DNA from: Rhodospirillaceae bacterium
GTDB lineage: Bacteria > Pseudomonadota > Alphaproteobacteria > Kiloniellales > DSM-21159
Direction: 5' to 3'
Assembly (NCBI GenBank): GCA_029265995.1
Contig: JAJUFM010000017.1
Span: 1 to 34,695, forward strand
DNA length: 34,695 nucleotides
Shown one piece after another: positions 8,527 to 21,256 of the stretch (positions are counted from its first letter, which is position 1; the number at the start of each line of letters is the position of its first letter). Position numbers and translations under genes: made by a program. The notes beneath the pieces are model-generated. The model was not told the DNA's origin, ran no database searches, and saw only the letters and a list, made by a program, of their open reading frames with translations.

Positions 8527-9981
8527 TCAAACCAAGCCGAAGCGTCGCAAAGCCCCACCGCCGTCTGCACGGCGCATCAAGGAGCGAACTTCGGAGCTGG
8601 CAGCAATCGTACCCTTGGTCATGAAGGCTTCGTGGTTCTTTTCGATATCGTCCCGAAGGTAGCGATAGTTGACCATGATCCCGGCAGACTGCTCCATCCC
8701 CTTGATGGATGTATCCCCCAGCCAGTTGATCCGTTCGAGGCGCGCCCCGTTGCGCAGGTGGAATCGGGCGACCGGGTCGATCGGCTGACCATCGCCTCGC
8801 CTTTCCATGAAGTAGCGTGCGGCGAGACGCAGCATCGGCTCCTCCAAAGCCTCGACCATCTCCTTGTGCTCGTACCAACGGTCGCGCTCAAGAAGGGCCT
8901 TCAAGGCCTCTGCACTATCCTCCAGTTCGCTCAGTTTCCGCAGGTCGGCGCGCTCGTCCGCTGTAAGCAGGGCGTCCAGCACTGTCCTGTCCTGCTTGTT
9001 CAGCCAAGACCTGAACCCTGGCACGGGGGACAAGGTGGCGAAGTTCCTGATCTGGGGAAGGTCGTGGCTCAGTTCCTGCACGACCATCTTGATAAGGAAG
9101 TCGCCGAAGGTGATTCCTCTTAGCCCGCGCTGGGTGTTGGAGATGGAATAGAAGATTGCGGTGTCTGCGCGTGCAGGATCGGCTGCAGGCGCACTTTCGT
9201 CGAGAAGAGCCTGAACGCTGCTGGCCATCCCGGCTACCAGGGCTACCTCAACAAAGGCCAGGGGCTCGTTCGGCATTCGGGGATGGAAGAGCGCATAGCA
9301 GCGGCGGTCAGAATCTAACCGATCGCGCAGATCATCCCACGACTGAATCTCGTGCACTGCCTCATAGGCAATGAGCTTTTCCAGCAAGGCTGCGCTGGAA
9401 TGCCAGGTGATCCTCCTGAGGTCGAGAAAGCCTGTATCGAACCACGACATTAGCAGTGCCTGAAGATCCCGGTCCAGTGCTTGCAACTGCGGATCCTGGT
9501 CCCGCAGCCCGAACAGATCGACCCGAAGATCCACCAGAAACTTAACGCCTTCAGGTAAAGCATTGAATTGCTTCAGTAAGCGTATCCTCGGCGGCTCCAA
9601 GGCCTCGCGAAGGCGCAGAGTCGCGGCAATGCGGCCTTCTTCGTCTTCCTGCTGATGATAATCGTCGATGGCCGCTTCGACGACCTCCTCCTTGACCGCG
9701 AAATCACGCGCCAGCACCTGCAAGAATATGGCCCGTCCTTCCGGATCGAGTTGCAGATAAGAGCGGCCGAGAGCCGCCGCCCGAAGGCGAGCGGACACTT
9801 CCCCCCCACGCGCCTCCAGACAGTCGCGCATCTGCTCACGCAAACGCAGCGGGTCTGCCACTGCCTCATCCGATACTGGAAGACCGATGCTCCTGGCGGC
9901 AGAGACAGCTACGTCGCGCCAATTGGCCGAGAGGTTCGAGAGCGCCCGGTCGAAAAGTGATGGGCTATCCTGATGCGTCAT
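8527..9981 (-). CDS. matA: Malonyl-CoA decarboxylase
   Basis: This 484-residue enzyme converts malonyl-CoA to acetyl-CoA and CO2. The family hallmarks are clear: HPRMPNEPLAFVEVALV, FYSISNTQRGLRGITFGDFL, TLSPVPGF with the likely catalytic Ser318, and ARFHLRNGARLERINW with the likely catalytic His408, then NYRYL...NHEAF near the end. The helical N-terminal domain is complete. The ATG at 9981 has GAGGAG just upstream. The gene is divergent from a GntR regulator and about 8 kb from matB. This matches the decarboxylase/synthetase logic of the rhizobial mat operon, but with an ABC transporter and other genes in between. Confidence 0.95.
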   Translation of the reverse strand: MTHQDSPSLFDRALSNLSANWRDVAVSAARSIGLPVSDEAVADPLRLREQMRDCLEARGGEVSARLRAAALGRSYLQLDPEGRAIFLQVLARDFAVKEEVVEAAIDDYHQQEDEEGRIAATLRLREALEPPRIRLLKQFNALPEGVKFLVDLRVDLFGLRDQDPQLQALDRDLQALLMSWFDTGFLDLRRITWHSSAALLEKLIAYEAVHEIQSWDDLRDRLDSDRRCYALFHPRMPNEPLAFVEVALVAGMASSVQALLDESAPAADPARADTAIFYSISNTQRGLRGITFGDFLIKMVVQELSHDLPQIRNFATLSPVPGFRSWLNKQDRTVLDALLTADERADLRKLSELEDSAEALKALLERDRWYEHKEMVEALEEPMLRLAARYFMERRGDGQPIDPVARFHLRNGARLERINWLGDTSIKGMEQSAGIMVNYRYLRDDIEKNHEAFMTKGTIAASSEVRSLMRRADGGGALRRFGLV

Positions 9982-10050
9982 GCCACTCCTCAAATTCCCG
10001 GCCGCGGCTGCGACCGCAACGCTGGTTCTTCCTTAGGCAGACAAGTTTAA

Positions 10051-10064
10051 TCACCTGAAGGTGA
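10051..10064. repeat. Perfect inverted repeat upstream of matA
   Basis: TCACCT and AGGTGA flank two bases. It lies 70 bp upstream of the matA start, in a position suited to an operator or activator site. It does not resemble the 14-bp site near matR, so another factor, or nothing, may bind it. Confidence 0.4.
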
Positions 10065-10262
10065 CATCAGAATGTCCCCTCCTTCTTTGGAGAGTGTTGG
10101 CGATGGGCAGCAGATGGTGAGAAAAAGAAGGAAGTCTCGCTGGCGAAAAAGATCCCTCTGCTGCTGCCAGTCTGGAAACACCTTTGGGGAGGGAGGCCGG
10201 GAACGGTGCGTCCTCTGCATCAGTCCTGCAACTCACCCGTTTTCTTAATGATGCCGTAACAG

Positions 10263-10291
10263 TTGCCATTATCGAACGCGCCGTCAATTAT
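10263..10291 (+). promoter_or_regulatory. Probable sigma-70 promoter of the GntR regulator
   Basis: The -35 TTGCCA (10263-10268) and -10 AATTAT (10286-10291) are separated by 17 bp. The predicted start of transcription falls inside the 14-bp operator-like site, only about 15-20 bp before the start codon, which would suit negative autoregulation. Confidence 0.5.
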
Positions 10292-10304
10292 CTTGTATGC
10301 ATAA
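10291..10304 (+). promoter_or_regulatory. Operator-like site 1 (GntR/FadR type)
   Basis: TCTTGTATGCATAA matches the site at 11044-11057 (opposite strand) at 12 of 14 positions and has the TGTATRCA core typical of FadR-subfamily operators. It overlaps the last base of the -10 element. From memory, the characterised rhizobial MatR operator also begins TCTTGTA; this was not checked here. Confidence 0.6.
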
Positions 10305-10313
10305 CCAGGTCAC

Positions 10314-11003
10314 ATGCATAACGATCGGCAGGTGGTGGTGAACGCCTCGCAAGCGCTTCGAGATGAAATCGAAAAAGGCATCGTAACCGGCGAGTTCAGG
10401 CCCGGCGAACGACTTGACGAGATGCAGTTGGCGAAGCGTTTCGGAGTTTCTCGAACTCCTATCCGCGAAACCTTGATGCAGCTCGGAGCAATAGGTCTTG
10501 TGGAGATTCGCCCGCGCCGGGGCGCGATCGTCGTCGAGCACGGCCCACAGCGCGTGTACGAGATGTTCGAGGTCATGGCGGAACTGGAAGGCATGGCGGC
10601 ATCCCTAGCCGCTCGCCGATTGACTGAAGCCCATATACAGGCCTTGCTGAGGGCGTTAGAAGGATGCGAGGTCGCGGCCAAAGAAGGCGACTTCGACGCC
10701 TACTACTATGCCAACGAGATTTTTCACCAGGCGATCTATAACGCGAGCCAAAGCGCCTTCCTGGCTGAGCAATGCACCTCTCTCCACAAGCGCTTGCGGC
10801 CCTACCGGCGCCTGCAACTGCGCGTACGCGGGCGTATAACCACCTCTCTCGCCGAACACGCTGCCGTGGTTGAGGCGATTGTGGCAGGCAGTGCCGAAAA
10901 GGCGCGAACACAGCTGCGCGCCCATGTAGTGGTTCAGGGCGATCGCTTCAGTGATCTGCTGGCCTCTCTTGACCAGTTGAAGCAAGGTTCAGCACCCACT
11001 TGA
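10314..11003 (+). CDS. matR: GntR-family (FadR/FCD subfamily) regulator, MatR-like
   Basis: This 229-residue regulator has an N-terminal winged helix (residues ~8-75; FRPGERLDEMQLAKRFGVSRTPIRETLMQL) followed by an all-helical FCD ligand domain. The FCD domain shows the metal/ligand-binding pattern (YYYANEIFHQAIYNAS, then SLAEHAAVVEAI and RAHV). Position supports malonate control: it is divergent from matA and sits directly before the transporter-matB run. Operator-like sites lie on both sides of it. The inducer could be malonate or the imported precursor. The ATG at 10314 sits inside a 9-bp direct repeat (10297 and 10314). The name matR rests on context and is less certain than the family. 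Confidence 0.85.
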   Translation: MHNDRQVVVNASQALRDEIEKGIVTGEFRPGERLDEMQLAKRFGVSRTPIRETLMQLGAIGLVEIRPRRGAIVVEHGPQRVYEMFEVMAELEGMAASLAARRLTEAHIQALLRALEGCEVAAKEGDFDAYYYANEIFHQAIYNASQSAFLAEQCTSLHKRLRPYRRLQLRVRGRITTSLAEHAAVVEAIVAGSAEKARTQLRAHVVVQGDRFSDLLASLDQLKQGSAPT

Positions 11004-11196
11004 TCCTGCCTATCTCCTCCTGTCGCAGCTCGCGTACCCCGATTTCTGTATACAAGAGTATTGACAGGGGCATACATAAATGGTCCCGTCCCAAAAACGC
11101 ATAAGAGCTACCGAACAAGGGTTGCTCTACAATAACGCGCTTCGCCGTCGCGCGCAGCGATAAATAGCTGGCGAAATCCAGGGAGGATGGGCTCCG
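11004..11196 (+). promoter_or_regulatory. Control region of the ABC transporter-matB gene run
   Basis: This 193-bp gap contains no gene. It has a perfect -35-like TTGACA at 11061-11066 without a convincing -10 at 16-18 bp, and a TACAAT at 11128-11133 without a good -35. It holds the second operator-like site (11044-11057) and a half-site GCATACA (11070-11076), placed on either side of TTGACA. A GGGAGG Shine-Dalgarno lies at 11181-11186. Confidence 0.55.
11044..11057 (-). promoter_or_regulatory. Operator-like site 2 (GntR/FadR type)
   Basis: Read on the minus strand it is TCTTGTATACAGAA, with the palindromic core GTATAC at 11048-11053. It is nearly identical to site 1 in the matA/matR gap and lies just upstream of a TTGACA hexamer, so the same regulator probably controls this promoter. 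Confidence 0.62.
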
Positions 11197-13281
<2,085 letters not shown>

Positions 13282-13394: not shown

Positions 13395-14987
13395 ATGATA
13401 AGAAGCAGATTTGCTGTCGGGGCGGGCTTCGTGGGAGCGGCACTTCTGACGACCGCTTTGGCGGCGCCAGCCTTGGCGGAAGAGCCGCGACACGGCGGCA
13501 TCCTGAATTTTGCGGTGGGCGCTGAACCCCCCAACTACGATTGCCACGCCAATACTTCCTTTGCCTTCACGCACCCGGTGCGTCCGCACTACAACACGCT
13601 GCTGCGCTTCGTGCCGGACAACTACCCGGAAGTTGAAGGTGATCTTGCGGAGTCTTGGGAAGTTTCAGAGGACGGACTGACCTATACCTTCCACTTGCGG
13701 GAAGGGGTGGAGTTCCACGATGGATCACCCTTCACCTCGGAAGATGTGCGTGCGACCTATGATCGCCTGCGCGATCCGCCCGACGGTGTGGTCTCCATCC
13801 GCCAGGCGTCCTACTCGGACATCGAGGCGATCGAAACGCCGGACGATCATACCGTCATCTTCAAGCTGTCTGGTCCGAACGCTGCGATGCTGGCGAACTT
13901 CGCCTCCCCCTGGGACTGCATCTACAGTGCCGAGAAGCTTGCGGAAGATCCGAATTTCCCGCGACAGAACATCCTCGGCACCGGCCCCTTCGTCTTTGAG
14001 GAGCATGCAGCAGGATCGCATTGGATCGGCAAGCGCAACGAGAACTATTGGGATCCAGAGCGCCCCTATCTCGACGGCTATCGGGCTGTCTTCATCTCCG
14101 GAGCGCCCATGGTCAACGCCCTTTCTGCCGGCGAAGTTCTGGCCGAGTTCCGCGGCCACTCCCCCGCCGATGCAGACCGCATCATGCAGCAGCTAGGCGA
14201 CGACGGCGTTCGTCAGGAAGGTCCCTGGGCTTGCCTGCTCAGCGTTGCGTTGAACGTGGAGAAACCTCCTTTCGACGATGTCCGGGTTCGCCAGGCCTTG
14301 TCCCTGGCGATTGATCGTTGGGGGGGGGCGGAAGCCCTGTCGCGGATCGCGTTGGTGCGAGACGTCGGTGGCATTCTCCGCCCGGGATACGATTATGCAG
14401 CCTCGAATGAGGAGCTGGAAAGCCTGCCGGGCTTCGGTCGCGACGTGGAGGCCAATCGAGCGGAAGCACGTCGTCTGCTGGAAGAGGCAGGATATTCCGA
14501 CCTCTCCTTCACCTTCACCAACCGCAACGTCCCCATGCCTTATACGCCCGTGGGCGTCTTCCTGATCGACCAGTGGCGACAGATCGGCGTTACCGTCGAG
14601 CATGAGCAGCTCGAGACACGTCTCTACACCGATAAGCTACTGGGCGACGAACTGGAAGCCGGGCTCGATTACGCCTGCGATTTCATGGATGAGCCGAGCA
14701 TTCAGCTCATCAAGTACATCTCGGCTGACAAGTCAGCGATCAACTATACCGGCTCCATCGATGAAACCCTCGACCGCCTCTACGAGGAGCAGTCGCGCGA
14801 GCTGGACGTGGAGAAGCGCAAGGAGCTGATCCGGAAGTTCGAAAAGCACCTCCTGACCCAGGCCTATCAGTTCCCGACGATCTGGTGGCACCGGATCATC
14901 GTTCACCACGACAAGCTGAAGAACTGGCACATCACGCCCAGCCACTACCTCAACGTCGATCTCGCCGACGTTTGGCTGGCTGAGTAA
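13395..14987 (+). CDS. Dpp/Opp-type ABC transporter substrate-binding protein (SBP_bac_5)
   Basis: This 530-residue periplasmic binding protein has a clear signal peptide (about residues 1-28, ending ALA). The mature part has the family-5 layout: RHGGILNFAVGAEPPNYD, then ESWEVSEDGLTYTFHLREGVEFHDGSPFTSEDV, then a mid-protein AIDR motif. Family members bind peptides, but also opines, nickel-histidine, sugars and plant conjugates, so the ligand cannot be assigned. Inside the gene, a run of nine G (14320-14328) encodes Trp-Gly-Gly and could slip. The gene is followed by a strong intercistronic hairpin that may raise its transcript level above the permeases. Confidence 0.92.
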   Translation: MIRSRFAVGAGFVGAALLTTALAAPALAEEPRHGGILNFAVGAEPPNYDCHANTSFAFTHPVRPHYNTLLRFVPDNYPEVEGDLAESWEVSEDGLTYTFHLREGVEFHDGSPFTSEDVRATYDRLRDPPDGVVSIRQASYSDIEAIETPDDHTVIFKLSGPNAAMLANFASPWDCIYSAEKLAEDPNFPRQNILGTGPFVFEEHAAGSHWIGKRNENYWDPERPYLDGYRAVFISGAPMVNALSAGEVLAEFRGHSPADADRIMQQLGDDGVRQEGPWACLLSVALNVEKPPFDDVRVRQALSLAIDRWGGAEALSRIALVRDVGGILRPGYDYAASNEELESLPGFGRDVEANRAEARRLLEEAGYSDLSFTFTNRNVPMPYTPVGVFLIDQWRQIGVTVEHEQLETRLYTDKLLGDELEAGLDYACDFMDEPSIQLIKYISADKSAINYTGSIDETLDRLYEEQSRELDVEKRKELIRKFEKHLLTQAYQFPTIWWHRIIVHHDKLKNWHITPSHYLNVDLADVWLAE

Positions 14988-15052: not shown

Positions 15053-16006
15053 ATGCTCGCCTATACGATCAGACGGATCCTCTTGATGGTCCCCACCCTT
15101 CTGGGGGTGGCCATTCTTGTCTTCCTCATGCTCCGCCTCATGCCTGGCGACATCGTCGAAACCATGCTGCGCGAGGGCGGCGGCAACGTACCTGCCCACG
15201 TTATCGAACAGGAGCGCGTGCGCCTTGGACTCGACAAGCCGATCCACATTCAGTTCATCAGCTGGTTCGGTGGAATCCTCCAGGGCGATTTCGGCGCCTC
15301 GATGTGGACCGGCAAGCCGGTGCTTCACGAGATAGGTTCACGGCTGGAACTGTCGCTGCAGATTGCGCTGATGGCGACCTTCCTGGCTGTCCTGATCGCC
15401 CTGCCGCTAGGCACCCTGGCCGCCATCTTCAAGAACACCATCGTCGACCATGTAATTCGTGTCATCTCCATCGCCGGCCTGGCCATTCCATCCTTCTGGC
15501 TGGGAATGGTCATCATCCTGCTGCTCCTGACCTTCTATGGGTGGATACCGCCCTTGACCTTCACCTCCTTCTTTGAGGATCCCTGGCGCAATCTTTCTCA
15601 GCTCATCTGGCCAGCCATGGCGGTGGGTTACCGCTATTCCGCGGTCGCTACGCGCATGGCGCGCTCCTCAATTCTAGAGGTGATGCAGGAAGACTATATC
15701 CGCACCGCGCGCGCCAAGGGCGTCTACGAACGCCTGGTGGTGGCGCGCCACGGCATGCGCAACGCCCTGCTGCCGGTCATTACGGTCATCGGTCTGGAGT
15801 TCGCCTTCCTGATCGGCGGGCTGGTCGTCACCGAGCAGGTGTTCAACCTGAACGGCATCGGCCGCCTTTTCGTGCAAGCGACGACCCGGGGCGACTACAC
15901 CATGATCCAGGGCCTCGTGCTCCTTGTGGCAGTGACCTTCATCATGGTGAATTTCCTGATCGACATGCTTTACGCGGCGCTCGACCCGCGCATCCGGTAC
16001 AAGTGA
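15053..16006 (+). CDS. Dpp/Opp-type ABC transporter permease (DppB-like)
   Basis: This 317-residue inner-membrane protein has about six transmembrane segments, beginning with the usual N-terminal signature MLAYTIRRILLMVPTLLGVA. It carries a large periplasmic loop after the first helix and the cytoplasmic EAA-type ATPase-contact motif EDYIRTARAKG. The C-terminus LYAALDPRIRYK is canonical for DppB homologues. The next permease starts two bases after its stop, so the pair is translationally linked. It forms the channel with the DppC-like protein. Confidence 0.93.
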   Translation: MLAYTIRRILLMVPTLLGVAILVFLMLRLMPGDIVETMLREGGGNVPAHVIEQERVRLGLDKPIHIQFISWFGGILQGDFGASMWTGKPVLHEIGSRLELSLQIALMATFLAVLIALPLGTLAAIFKNTIVDHVIRVISIAGLAIPSFWLGMVIILLLLTFYGWIPPLTFTSFFEDPWRNLSQLIWPAMAVGYRYSAVATRMARSSILEVMQEDYIRTARAKGVYERLVVARHGMRNALLPVITVIGLEFAFLIGGLVVTEQVFNLNGIGRLFVQATTRGDYTMIQGLVLLVAVTFIMVNFLIDMLYAALDPRIRYK

Positions 16007-16007
16007 T

Positions 16008-16913
16008 ATGACCGATACCACCACCGATACGGTTCCTGCCGTCACCTACAAGGTTCGCAAGGCTCGCCACCCGATACTGGGCTTCGTCCTACAGCAGCCC
16101 CTGGGAGCGATGGGCCTTCTGGTCATCATCATCATGATGCTCTGCGGTCTCTTCGCGGAGGTCGTGGCGCCCTATGATCCCTTGCAGATCGACTACATGG
16201 CGATTCTTCAGGCGCCTTCAGCCGACCACTGGATGGGGACAGACGATTTCGGCCGCGACATCCTTTCACGAGTGATTTATGGCGCACGCACCGCGCTTGC
16301 CGTCGGCTTCATTGCTTCACTGGCCGGCTGCAGCATTGGCGCCATCATCGGTATGGTGTCCGCCTACTTCGGTGGGTGGGTCGACACCATCATCCAGCGC
16401 CTGATGGACGTGCTGCTGTCCTTCCCCATCATCGTCCTGGCCCTGGCCATCGTTGCCATCCTGGGCAAGAACGTCGTAGGCGGCATCGACATCAACCTGA
16501 TCATCGCGATCGGTTTGCCCATCATACCGAAGGTGGCGCGCGTCATCCGCTCCTCCGCGCTGGCCATTCGGGAATTGCCCTACATCGACGCTGCGCGAGC
16601 GGCCGGCTTCTCCCACAAGCGGATCGTGATGCGCCACATTCTGCCGAACGTGACCGCTCCCTTCCTGATCATGTTGACGGCCTATGTCGCCCAGGCGATC
16701 CTGCTCGAAGCCTCCCTGTCTTTCCTCGGCCTAGGTGTCACCGAGCCGACGCCGGCCTGGGGCCTGATGCTTTCCGGTTCCGCCGCGCAGTATTATCAGG
16801 AAGCTCCTTGGATGATCATTTTCCCGGGGATCGCGATCAGTCTGGCGGTCTTTGCCTTCAACCTCTTCGGCGATGCCCTGCGGGATTGGCTCGATCCGAA
16901 GGTTCGGATGTGA
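16008..16913 (+). CDS. Dpp/Opp-type ABC transporter permease (DppC-like)
   Basis: This 301-residue partner permease has an N-terminal cytoplasmic tail, a first helix at about residues 35-55, then MAILQAPSADHWMGTDDFGRDILSRVIYGART, the family hallmark. The EAA motif is ELPYIDAARAAGFSHKRI, and the C-terminus FNLFGDALRDWLDPK is canonical. Its last codons overlap the GTG start of azlC (16910) by 4 bp, so the AzlC exporter is coupled to this importer at translation. Confidence 0.93.
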   Translation: MTDTTTDTVPAVTYKVRKARHPILGFVLQQPLGAMGLLVIIIMMLCGLFAEVVAPYDPLQIDYMAILQAPSADHWMGTDDFGRDILSRVIYGARTALAVGFIASLAGCSIGAIIGMVSAYFGGWVDTIIQRLMDVLLSFPIIVLALAIVAILGKNVVGGIDINLIIAIGLPIIPKVARVIRSSALAIRELPYIDAARAAGFSHKRIVMRHILPNVTAPFLIMLTAYVAQAILLEASLSFLGLGVTEPTPAWGLMLSGSAAQYYQEAPWMIIFPGIAISLAVFAFNLFGDALRDWLDPKVRM

Positions 16914-17659
16914 CGGCGAGTAGCTCTTTCATTTCCGGCCCCCGTTACGAAACAGCCGCTGACGCGCTACGCGGCGGCGCGTTGGAAGGGATGGGGGCTC
17001 CGGCACTGGTTCTCGGCTCCGGCTACATCGGCTTTGGCGCCTTGGCGGCCGATGCCGGGGTATCCCTTCCGCTTGCGGTACTTTCAACGCCGATGATCTT
17101 TGCCCTGCCCGCCCAAATTATCATGGTAGAGATGTGGCAGCTGGGAACGCCGGTACTTGCCCTGGTGCTGGCAGTGATGATGGCCAATGCTCGCTTTCTG
17201 CCGATGACGGCCACGCTGCTGCCGCAGATGCGGCATCCCCGCTGGAACGGCTGGCACTACGCCTTTGCAACCCACCTGGTGGCCATGTCGGGATGGGCCA
17301 TCGCCATGCGCCGGAACGTGGAGTTAGAGGCAGAACACCGCCTGCCGTTCTTCTGCGGCTTCAGCCTCATCATGTGGTTGGGTTGCTCGCTCGGCACGCT
17401 GATCGGCTTCTTCCTGTCGGGCGGGTTCCACGATTTGGTGACGGTCGGCCTGATCTTCCTCAATCCCATCTACTTCATTCTCATCCTTACGCGAGAAACC
17501 CGCACGCGCCTGGGGATAACAGCACTGCTCTGCGGTGCCGTCGCTGGCCCGCTGGTTCACCTCTGGATCCCTGACTGGAGTCTGATTGTCGGTGGCATTC
17601 TCGCCGGACTGTTAGCGTTCGCGATCCTGGAGAGCACAGGAGCGGCTCGACGTGGCTGA
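16910..17659 (+). CDS. azlC: AzlC-family branched-chain amino acid exporter, large subunit
   Basis: This 249-residue membrane protein is the large subunit of an AzlC/AzlD exporter of branched-chain amino acids and analogues. Landmarks are the hydrophobic N-terminal region with GYIGFGALAADAGVSLPLAVLSTPMIFALPAQ and then ANARFLPMTATLLPQMR, typical of AzlC. The start is GTG at 16910, overlapping the dppC stop, with GAAGG 7 nt upstream. Longer in-frame readings upstream run through dppC and are not real. It overlaps azlD by 8 bp. Its place between an importer and malonate genes suggests it exports an amino-acid product of the pathway; that is inference. Confidence 0.88.
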   Translation: MTASSSFISGPRYETAADALRGGALEGMGAPALVLGSGYIGFGALAADAGVSLPLAVLSTPMIFALPAQIIMVEMWQLGTPVLALVLAVMMANARFLPMTATLLPQMRHPRWNGWHYAFATHLVAMSGWAIAMRRNVELEAEHRLPFFCGFSLIMWLGCSLGTLIGFFLSGGFHDLVTVGLIFLNPIYFILILTRETRTRLGITALLCGAVAGPLVHLWIPDWSLIVGGILAGLLAFAILESTGAARRG

Positions 17660-17984
17660 TGCAAGTCTCTGGGGATTGATGCTGGTCTGCGCGGTTGTCA
17701 CCTTCGCCCTGAGAGGCACCGGCCTCTGGCTTTCCCGCCTCATCAGTCTCGACGGACGGGCGATGCGGCTTCTCGCCTGTATCGCCTATGCGACGCTAGC
17801 CGCGCTGGTTTCCCGGATCCTCTTCCTGCCGGCGGGCATTCTGGAAACCACGTCCCTGTGGGAACGGCTTTTGGCCACGGCAGTCGCTCTCGGAGTGTTC
17901 CTTTTGCTCGGCATGAACCTCCTGGCCGGCGTTGTCACCGGGGGTGTGGCGCTGGTGGTCATCGTCGTGCTGTTCGGGCTATAG
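17652..17984 (+). CDS. azlD: AzlD-family exporter small subunit
   Basis: This 110-residue protein has four hydrophobic segments, the size and pattern of AzlD, the small partner of AzlC. RGTGLWLSRLISLDGRAMRLLACIAYATLAALVSR is typical. The start is GTG at 17652, inside the end of azlC, which implies coupled translation and a two-subunit complex. A 172-bp gap to matB follows, holding only a weak 6-bp hairpin (18056-18072). Confidence 0.87.
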   Translation: MADASLWGLMLVCAVVTFALRGTGLWLSRLISLDGRAMRLLACIAYATLAALVSRILFLPAGILETTSLWERLLATAVALGVFLLLGMNLLAGVVTGGVALVVIVVLFGL

Positions 17985-18156: not shown

Positions 18157-19674
18157 ATGAACAGAAACCTCTACTCCCTCCTCTCCGAGCGCTTTCCGTC
18201 TGACCGCAGCCAGACTGTCCTGGAGATGCCGGACGGCAATCGCCACGACTATGCCCATCTGGAAGCGATGGCAGGTCGCTATGCAGCGCTGCTGCGCAAG
18301 CTTGGAGTCAGGCCGGGCGAAAGGGTCGCCGTTCAGACCGAGAAGTCTCCCAATGCCATATACTTCTACCTCGGCTGCCTGCAGGCGGGTGCGGTCTACC
18401 TGCCGCTGAACACCGCCTATACGAAGTCGGAGGTTTCCTACTTCCTGGAAGACGCAGAGCCGGCGCTGCTTCTCTGCCGCCCGGAAAGCCTTGCACCGAT
18501 CACCGAGATTGCCGAGGCCGCAGGCGTCAGCCACATCCACTCCATGGACGCGCAAGGCAACGGCTCTCTTACGGCAGCCGCCCTGGAGCTTGCGCCTTCT
18601 TCAGATATCGAGCCGAGGGCGGACGACGACCTGGCCGCCATTCTTTACACCTCCGGCACGACCGGGCGCTCAAAGGGCGCCATGCTCACGCACGGAAATC
18701 TCTCTTCCAACGCCTTTACCTTGCACCGGATCTGGGGGTTCCGGGAGGGCGATGTCCTCCTCCACGCCCTGCCAATTTTCCACGTGCATGGCCTGTTCAT
18801 CGCCACCAACACCACGCTGGCGAACGGCAGCTCCATGATCTTCCTGCCGCGCTTCGACGTTGATGAGGTCCTCCGGCTACTTCCGAAGGCCACGCTGATG
18901 ATGGGTGTACCAACCTTCTACGTGCGCCTGCTCGCCCATCCTGAATTCACCCGGGAAGCCAGTGCGCACATGCGCGTTTTCATTTCCGGCTCAGCACCTT
19001 TGCTCGAGGAAACCTTCTACGCCTTTGAGGAGCGTACCGGACAGCGAATCCTGGAGCGCTATGGGATGACGGAAGCCGGCATGATCACCTCTAACCCCTA
19101 TGAGGCGGAGCGACGAGCCGGAACCGTGGGATTTCCTCTGCCTGATGTGGAAGTGCGTGTGGCCGATAATGAGGGGCGCATGCTGGGCACCAACGAGATC
19201 GGCGTCCTGGAGGCCAAGGGTCCCAACATCTTCAAGGGCTACTGGCGGATGCCTGAGAAGACGGCGGAAGAGTTTCGCCCCGACGGCTTCTTCATCACGG
19301 GCGATATCGCCAAGATCGATGAGCGTGGTTACGTCCACATTGTGGGCCGGGCCAAAGACCTGATTATCTCGGGCGGCTACAATGTCTATCCCAAGGAGAT
19401 CGAGCTGGTCATCGATGCCCAGCCCGGGGTGGTGGAAAGCGCCGTTATCGGACTGCCGCATCCCGATTTTGGCGAAGCGGTTGCGGCCGCGGTGGTTCGC
19501 ACCGCCCCCGACGCAACCGACGAGGCCACCCTCCTTACCGGCATCAAGGGGGAATTGGCGGGCTTCAAGCTTCCGAAAAAACTTTTCTTCGTGAACGAAT
19601 TGCCGCGCAATACCATGGGCAAGGTACAGAAGGCGCAGCTGCGCGAAAGCTACAAGAACGCCTTTGTCACCTAG
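18157..19674 (+). CDS. matB: Malonyl-CoA synthetase
   Basis: This 505-residue acyl-adenylate-forming enzyme makes malonyl-CoA from malonate, CoA and ATP. The AMP-binding loop TSGTTGRSKGAMLTHGNL starts at residue 165. Further landmarks are HALPIFHVHGLF, LMMGVPTFYVRLL, ISGSAPLL, ERYGMTEAGM, and the hinge and catalytic region ISGGYNVYPKEIE with C-terminal PRNTMGKVQK. It is close to the well-known Rhizobium MatB throughout. The ATG at 18157 is the natural start; a longer upstream reading is open but lacks homology. Paired with matA, it completes malonate to acetyl-CoA. Related methylmalonate activation is possible. Confidence 0.94.
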   Translation: MNRNLYSLLSERFPSDRSQTVLEMPDGNRHDYAHLEAMAGRYAALLRKLGVRPGERVAVQTEKSPNAIYFYLGCLQAGAVYLPLNTAYTKSEVSYFLEDAEPALLLCRPESLAPITEIAEAAGVSHIHSMDAQGNGSLTAAALELAPSSDIEPRADDDLAAILYTSGTTGRSKGAMLTHGNLSSNAFTLHRIWGFREGDVLLHALPIFHVHGLFIATNTTLANGSSMIFLPRFDVDEVLRLLPKATLMMGVPTFYVRLLAHPEFTREASAHMRVFISGSAPLLEETFYAFEERTGQRILERYGMTEAGMITSNPYEAERRAGTVGFPLPDVEVRVADNEGRMLGTNEIGVLEAKGPNIFKGYWRMPEKTAEEFRPDGFFITGDIAKIDERGYVHIVGRAKDLIISGGYNVYPKEIELVIDAQPGVVESAVIGLPHPDFGEAVAAAVVRTAPDATDEATLLTGIKGELAGFKLPKKLFFVNELPRNTMGKVQKAQLRESYKNAFVT

Positions 19675-19724: not shown

Positions 19725-19762
19725 CTGGCTTGGATCACAAAGCTCGGAAGGAGGCCCTGCCG

Positions 19763-21256
19763 GTGAGCACCCTCGACACTCCTGCACTCGATCCCCGCAA
19801 ACTGGCCCGCCGCCTGTCGAACAAGCACCTGATCGATGGAAGCTTCGTGGCCCCCCAAGGAGGCAAGACCTTCGACGTCATTCACCCGGCAACTCTCGAG
19901 GTAGTGGCTCAGGCCGCGGCCGGCGAGGCGGCGGATGTCGATGCGGCGGTGGCCGCCGCCAAGCGGGCACAGGCTTCTTGGCGGGCGCTACCGGCCCGAG
20001 AAAGGGGCAAGCTGGTCGCGGAATGCGGCCGCCGGTTGGAGGGGCACAAGGAGGAGCTGGCCCAACTGGTCGCCTTGGAGACGGGCAAGGCATTGCGCAC
20101 GGAAAGCCGGGTCGAGGCCAATGTCGTGGCCGATGCCTTCATCTTCTATGGCGGCCTCGCGTCTGAACTGAAGGGCGAACACGTCCCTTTCCACCCCGAC
20201 ATGCTGACAGTGACGATCCGAGAGCCAATCGGCGTCGTGGGCGCGATCATTCCCTGGAACGTCCCGATGATGCTGATGGCCTTCAAGATCGCCCCGGCGC
20301 TGGTCGCCGGGAATACGGTGGTCGTAAAGTCGGCGGAGGAAGCGCCGCTGGCAGTGCTACGCGTCTGCGAAATAATGAACGAGGTCCTGCCACCGGGCGT
20401 CTTCAATATCCTTTCCGGTTTCGGTCCCGAATGTGGCGGCCCACTGGTTGCCCATCCAGACGTCGGAAAGATCACCTTTACCGGTTCCGTGGAGACCGGG
20501 AAGATCATCTCTCGCGCGGCTGCCGAAAAGCTGATCCCGGTGACGCTCGAACTGGGCGGCAAGTCGCCGATGATCGTAATGGACGACGCGGACCTGGAAC
20601 GGGCGGTCGAAGGCGCGGTGACCGGGGTGCGCTTTACCCGCCAGGGTCAGTCCTGCACGGCGGCAAGCCGGATTTACGTGCACGAAAGCCTTCATGACCG
20701 CTTTGTGGAGGCACTCAAGGCCCGCGTGGATGGCATGGTCATGGGTGACCCGCTCGATGAAGCGACAGACATCGGCACGATTGTTAGCGAACAGCAGTAC
20801 GAGAAGGTTCTAGGCTATATCACCCAGGGACAGGCCGACGGCGGAACCGCACTGGAAGCTTCCCGGCTTCCAGAGGATTCACGGCTGTCCAAGGGTTACT
20901 TCGTTCGTCCAGTAATTTTTACCGACCTGCCGGAAACGAGCCGCTGCATCCAGGAGGAGATCTTCGGTCCGGTTACTGCCGTCCAGCGCATCTCGAGCCT
21001 GGACGAGGCGATCGAGAAGGCGAACGACAGTGTCTATGGCCTCGCGGCAACCATTTGGACGAGCAACCTGAAGACGGCGATGGAGGGTGTCCGCCGACTG
21101 GAGGCGGGCTTCGTTCAGGTCAACCAGAACCTTGTTGTTCAGCCCAACCTTTCCTATGGCGGGATCAAGCAGTCCGGTCTGGGGAAGGAAGCTTCTCTGG
21201 AAGCGATGCTGGAACACTTCACGGTCAAGAAGACCGCCATTATCAACATGACGTGA
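19763..21256 (+). CDS. NAD(P)-dependent aldehyde dehydrogenase
   Basis: This 497-residue ALDH-superfamily enzyme oxidises an aldehyde to the acid. The cofactor-site motif is GAIIPWNVPMMLMAFKIAPALVAGNTVVVK. The general-base glutamate is Glu263 in ELGGKSP and the catalytic cysteine is Cys298 in GQSCTA, one residue further apart than in classical ALDH2. EIFGPV and NQNLVVQPNLSYGGIKQSG are present. The GTG at 19763 is preferred, with AAGGAGG 8 nt upstream. Given matB upstream, malonate semialdehyde to malonate is an attractive guess, but the sequence looks like the general betaine/succinate-semialdehyde group and lacks clear CoA-acylating MMSDH features. Confidence 0.9.
   Translation: MSTLDTPALDPRKLARRLSNKHLIDGSFVAPQGGKTFDVIHPATLEVVAQAAAGEAADVDAAVAAAKRAQASWRALPARERGKLVAECGRRLEGHKEELAQLVALETGKALRTESRVEANVVADAFIFYGGLASELKGEHVPFHPDMLTVTIREPIGVVGAIIPWNVPMMLMAFKIAPALVAGNTVVVKSAEEAPLAVLRVCEIMNEVLPPGVFNILSGFGPECGGPLVAHPDVGKITFTGSVETGKIISRAAAEKLIPVTLELGGKSPMIVMDDADLERAVEGAVTGVRFTRQGQSCTAASRIYVHESLHDRFVEALKARVDGMVMGDPLDEATDIGTIVSEQQYEKVLGYITQGQADGGTALEASRLPEDSRLSKGYFVRPVIFTDLPETSRCIQEEIFGPVTAVQRISSLDEAIEKANDSVYGLAATIWTSNLKTAMEGVRRLEAGFVQVNQNLVVQPNLSYGGIKQSGLGKEASLEAMLEHFTVKKTAIINMT

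Follow-up and report, generated by a model that had tools for sequence, protein, structure and literature searches.

Two candidate MatR operators flank matR in a Rhodospirillaceae bacterium and may place an ABC transporter-matB run under its control

The window analysed here, i.e. the whole stretch of 34,695 nucleotides from contig JAJUFM010000017.1 of a Rhodospirillaceae bacterium (assembly GCA_029265995.1), contains a gene for a GntR-family regulator, matR, with a divergent gene for a malonyl-CoA decarboxylase, matA, on one side and a plus-strand run of genes on the other (Table 1). The matB gene, which is the sole copy in the genome, lies 7 kb downstream of the regulator gene and shares a separate run with the genes of an Opp/Dpp-type ABC transporter. 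An aldehyde dehydrogenase gene starts about 60 bp after matB and could be a further member of this run.

Table 1 Features of the mat locus and of the candidate operators (positions of the window)
Feature	Position	Strand	Evidence and remarks
matA, malonyl-CoA decarboxylase	8527..9981	-	Pfam MCD, MCD_N; ATG at 9981 (start called from sequence), AGGAG ahead
TTGACG, -35-like, 3 nt from site 1, facing matA	10282..10287	-	composite TGTATACAAGANNNTTGAC, 1 mismatch
Site 1, candidate MatR operator TCTTGTATGCATAA	10291..10304	+	16.7 bits, matrix rank 2 in window
matR, GntR-family regulator with FCD domain	10314..11003	+	Pfam GntR 63.7 bits, FCD 104 bits
TGCAT, possible companion half-site, 21 bp from site 1	10315..10319	+	half-site score top 2%; weak
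Site 2, candidate MatR operator TCTTGTATACAGAA	11044..11057	-	19.6 bits, matrix rank 1 in window
TTGACA, -35-like, 3 nt from site 2, facing transporter-matB run	11061..11066	+	composite, 0 mismatches, genome-unique
GCATACA half-site, 22 bp from site 2	11070..11076	+	half-site score top 0.05% of window; weak
Fused double ATPase, Opp/Dpp-type ABC transporter	11197..13281	+	Pfam ABC_tran (two stretches), oligo_HPY
Solute-binding protein, family 5	13395..14987	+	Pfam SBP_bac_5
ABC permease 1	15053..16006	+	Pfam BPD_transp_1
ABC permease 2	16008..16913	+	Pfam BPD_transp_1, OppC_N
AzlC-like permease	16910..17659	+	Pfam AzlC
AzlD-like ORF	17652..17984	+	size and position only
matB, malonyl-CoA synthase	18157..19674	+	NCBIfam PRK07514, 815 bits
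Aldehyde dehydrogenase, probably the final gene of the run	19730..21256	+	Pfam Aldedh; start approximate

The regulator possesses an N-terminal winged helix of the GntR type and a C-terminal FCD domain, and its gene has matA as divergent neighbour and matB downstream. Its identity to MatR proteins of rhizobia is 61-69% in most cases, and it is placed as sister to the rhizobial MatR rows in the tree (support 99/95). The stretch VSRTPxRE, which reads the DNA, is invariant in the aligned MatR proteins. Atu1419 belongs to the same regulator subfamily as MatR and also has the TGTATACA core site and an arginine in helix 3 that reads a guanine, but it differs from MatR in its pathway, in its proposed effector and in forming a DNA-looping tetramer. 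The position of this arginine (Arg45) falls in the corresponding helix of MatR. In the solved structure of Atu1419, a repressor of the VanR group from Agrobacterium fabrum with the core site TGTATACA, Arg45 contacts the key guanine (PMC7797058).

According to the original prediction, two matching operator-like sites flank matR. Both 14-nt words are indeed present, on opposite strands, and they are identical at 12 of 14 positions; read on the promoter-facing strand, site 1 is TTATGCATACAAGA and site 2 is TTCTGTATACAAGA. A repeat search without prior assumption returned a 22-nt inverted repeat (10283-10304/11044-11065) as the longest of the region. The common element is therefore longer than first described and comprises 22 bp, namely the operator, 3 nt and TTGAC. 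Taken by themselves the two 14-mers are only mildly unusual, with approximately 0.6-0.8 matches (at most three mismatches) expected per shuffled window, and the case for the operators was therefore built on orthologous loci and on the whole genome.

For the former, a scoring matrix was derived from 60 sites upstream of orthologous matR genes, leaving out the two sites of the window. When the window was scanned with this matrix, site 2 and site 1 took the first two ranks, while the third-best position was lower by 14 bits, reaching only 2.3 bits. Each of the two scores is reached by one position in 3 Mb of random sequence that has the composition of the window. Site 2 is identical at 14 of 14 positions to the matR site of Brucella grignonensis. 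Two further candidates, a third site by matA (10033-10046) and a ATGCATAA repeat at 10314 (shift of 17), were rejected, as their matrix scores were far under those of the real sites.

In pattern searches of the whole genome (3.17 Mb), TCTTGTATRCANAA matches nowhere but at the two sites, and no other position matches the palindrome as well as site 2 does. Likewise, the composite of operator and TTGAC, TGTATACAAGANNNTTGAC, has only two good matches, site 2 with no mismatch and site 1 with one; the next-best match has three mismatches, a level which is also reached by the reversed control. A chance likeness of two AT-rich words, to which the modest rarity of the 14-mers alone would point, thus has a vanishingly small probability and is refuted at the sequence level by the ortholog matrix, the uniqueness in the genome and the conserved geometry described below.

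The conservation of the motif was examined in 57 loci with relatives of the regulator from named genomes and in loci from the family and order of the genome itself, in a search interval that began 300 bp before the aligned matR start and ended 60 bp after it. The palindrome TCTTGTATACAAGA was found with zero to three mismatches upstream of matR in 62 of 77 loci, and the reversed pattern in none of the 77, although these counts are not all independent, given the close kinship of many rhizobial loci. Site 1 occupies this conserved place ahead of matR. The loci from the family and the order support the conservation of the putative operator separately from the rhizobial ones. Loci without the palindrome mostly belong to distant relatives (Methylobacterium, Propionivibrio and a Myxococcales bin). 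Six Methylobacterium loci (L047, L050, L051, L053, L054 and L055) have a matR relative without a TCTTGTATACAAGA site, and there a GntR gene on the opposite strand, encoding a protein 33-38% identical, lies directly beside it. Three loci (L047, L049 and L050) show [TC]CTTGTATATT in place of TCTTGTATACAAGA.

In the loci of R. leguminosarum and R. johnstonii, the strand facing matA carries TCTTGTATACACGA, which in R. leguminosarum is followed by 3 nt and TTGAC. The likeness to the rhizobial MatR site, which had been put forward in the original prediction, is hence borne out. In the R. leguminosarum loci, TCTTGTATACACGA matches the reported footprint of MatR, and this kind of operator is therefore already known; MatR and the operator of the matABC genes were reportedly described in Rhizobium leguminosarum bv. 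trifolii by Lee, An and Kim in 2000. By their sequence, the two sites of the window belong to this known operator type, albeit in a rearranged regulon.

The position of the operators relative to TTGAC is conserved as well. An exact TTGAC after 3 nt is present on the side pointing away from matR in 29 of 62 orthologous operators and on the side toward matR in 0 of 62. Both sites of the window have it on the side of the gene that would be regulated, and the TTGACA that had been noted beside site 2, ahead of the transporter run, is this element. The suggestion that site 1 overlaps the promoter of the regulator itself fared less well, since the prediction of such a matR promoter is at chance level; the best-conserved promoter element there, TTGACG, faces matA rather than matR. 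The centres of the operator and of TTGACN are 13 bp apart, with the operator upstream; taking TTGAC as the -35 element, the operator would be centred at approximately -46, and the footprint of R. trifolii MatR is reportedly centred at -46.2. No convincing -10 element was found 16-18 nt from TTGAC at either site. Both promoters possess an ATAA stretch at equal offset (GATAAT and CATAAA), which could serve as an alternative -10.

This geometry also bears on the sign of the regulation. An activator that is bound just upstream of the -35 element and recruits RNA polymerase in the presence of malonate would commonly be found around -46, and a dependence on such an activator would fit the absence of good -10 elements. 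However, the related Atu1419 represses from the same core site, as do most regulators of the FCD-type within the GntR family, and we regard activation by MatR as rather unlikely, though as an alternative to be taken seriously.

Weaker second sites in the orthologs are enriched at a distance of exactly 21 bp, i.e. two helical turns. The TGCAT next to site 1 keeps this register, overlaps the start of matR and corresponds to TGTAT at an offset of +21 in the rhizobial loci. The GCATACA half-site predicted 22 bp from site 2 is present and has a high half-site score, but the companions in the orthologs are found at 21 bp; it is plausible as a companion half-site that is one base off the conserved spacing.

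In most orthologous loci, matR adjoins matA and/or matB. Within the same family, matB directly follows matR, and a gene for a TRAP binding protein is situated between matR and the divergent matA. In the window, matR and matB are instead separated by the genes for the Opp/Dpp-type ABC transporter and AzlC, which follow site 2. A second operator within 400 bp downstream of matR was found in 0 of 75 orthologous loci, so that the proposed control of the transporter run rests on site 2 itself and not on conservation of the layout. The lack of the flanking pair in any ortholog also weakens the idea of a joint action of both sites on matR, with a MatR tetramer bridging them and looping out the 740 bp of matR in between, and with site 2 serving mainly for autoregulation. 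The tetramer of the VanR-group relative Atu1419 does loop two TGTATACA palindromes that are 190 bp apart (PMC7797058). In addition, two strong sites flank matR in the window, and the 21-bp companion sites of the orthologs suggest that more than one dimer is assembled. For looping alone, however, the full module of operator, 3 nt and TTGACA in front of the transporter run would be unneeded, and we consider such an arrangement improbable.

The proteins of the locus do not share the same nearest relatives. MatR is only 48-56% identical to the proteins of the genome's own family, whereas MatA (63-65% to the family vs. 42-47% to rhizobia) and MatB (66-71% vs. 55-61%) are closest to them. Since matR is nearest to rhizobia and matA and matB are nearest to the family, the locus has been rearranged. 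These identities suggest that matR was replaced by transfer and acquired apart from matA and matB; a paralogue history would be another source of the mismatch between the regulator and the enzymes. Against this background, site 2 might be a functionless leftover of a duplication or of the horizontal capture of matR together with its promoter, and the two modules indeed match at 26 of 39 positions. A relic should decay, however, and site 2 is nearer to the consensus than site 1, retains TTGACA at the right spacing and precedes the operon with the only matB of the genome, which makes a leftover quite improbable.

We therefore consider it highly probable, as judged from the sequences compared, that the two sites are operators of the MatR ortholog encoded between them and act at two outward-facing promoters, each operator lying 3 nt upstream of TTGAC. 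Site 1 would serve the minus-strand gene matA and, since it lies close by, also matR, and site 2 would serve the plus-strand run with the ABC transporter, AzlC, matB and the aldehyde dehydrogenase. The candidate operators themselves are established at this level, as are their conservation, the geometry common to both and the fact that they are unique in the genome. From these we infer the binding of MatR, its effector, the sign of regulation and the organization of the downstream run as one operon: the -35 region is most likely blocked by bound, effector-free MatR dimers, which malonate or one of its close derivatives would release. One regulator would then join uptake, activation to malonyl-CoA by MatB and decarboxylation by MatA despite the presence of two catabolic operons. 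The prediction of a single MatR regulon comprising matA, matR and the ABC-matB run is thus supported by the ortholog matrix, the conservation of the motif and its uniqueness in the genome.

There are both likenesses to and differences from the known systems. As in R. leguminosarum bv. trifolii, an orthologous GntR/FCD regulator is accompanied by a divergent matA with an operator in the gap. In that organism, however, matA, matB and matC are clustered together to one side of matR, whereas the window has matB in a second operon; an arrangement of matA, matB and matC on one side of matR with one operator is not present here. A transporter-matB run behind a second operator, without matC, is also unlike R. 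leguminosarum bv. trifolii. The matA leader, counted from site 1, has a length of approximately 250-300 bp compared to roughly 100 bp in rhizobia, a difference which, like the lack of convincing -10 elements, counts against the proposed reading. The leader has no similarity to the other loci fetched. It contains interleaved inverted repeats (10080-10088/10124-10132 and 10106-10113/10161-10168, within window positions 10000-10250). These repeats had suggested a structured RNA in the leader, but the idea was rejected, as folding was no better than that of shuffled sequences (z -0.66 on the minus and -0.10 on the plus strand), and there is no Rfam match in the window.

The divergent neighbour of the regulator gene in the Sinorhizobium, Brucella and Chelatococcus loci is DctP-like, as judged from sequence. 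The MatR relatives of Sinorhizobium, which presumably are GtrA, are 68-69% identical to MatR, and the same module of operator, 3 nt and TTGAC faces the gene for the DctP-like binding protein. The transporter of S. meliloti is of the TRAP type, whereas that of the window is an ABC transporter on the other side of the regulator. GtrA and the malonate TRAP transporter of Sinorhizobium meliloti go back to Chen et al. 2010, as cited in PMC5237526.

A close TRAP homolog was not found in the genome of the window, where the best match has 27% identity. It is possible, though we put this forward only tentatively, that the Opp/Dpp-type ABC transporter has replaced a TRAP or MatC carrier as importer of malonate or of a precursor and has come under the control of MatR via a duplicated operator-promoter module. 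Transporters of this class are usually assigned to peptides, nickel or glutathione, and related transporters are found in other genomes with no mat genes in the vicinity. In one genome (G186, L152:7679-14704), the permease genes of a related ABC set directly precede a gene for a malonyl-CoA decarboxylase in the same orientation; this arrangement supports the role as malonate importer and provides an independent link of this type of transporter to malonate. In a genome of the same genus (G004, L104:2789-11525), a related transporter is found among genes for a family III CoA-transferase and two HpcH/HpaI lyases (citrate-lyase-like), with a LysR-like gene beside the cluster. Short carboxylates as substrate are consistent with the gene neighbourhoods. 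A limited literature search, which is weak evidence of absence, yielded no ABC-type malonate importer, and the placement of an ABC transporter under the MatR switch appears to be new.

The MatR operator matrix in combination with the fixed -35 geometry can be used across several alphaproteobacterial families. Through the proposed regulon, a family-5 ABC transporter becomes connected with the use of malonate, and the substrate of this transporter is directly testable. If the aldehyde dehydrogenase is part of the matB run, malonate could also come from malonate semialdehyde. The locus would illustrate how a regulon takes in a new transporter through the gain of one 22-bp module.
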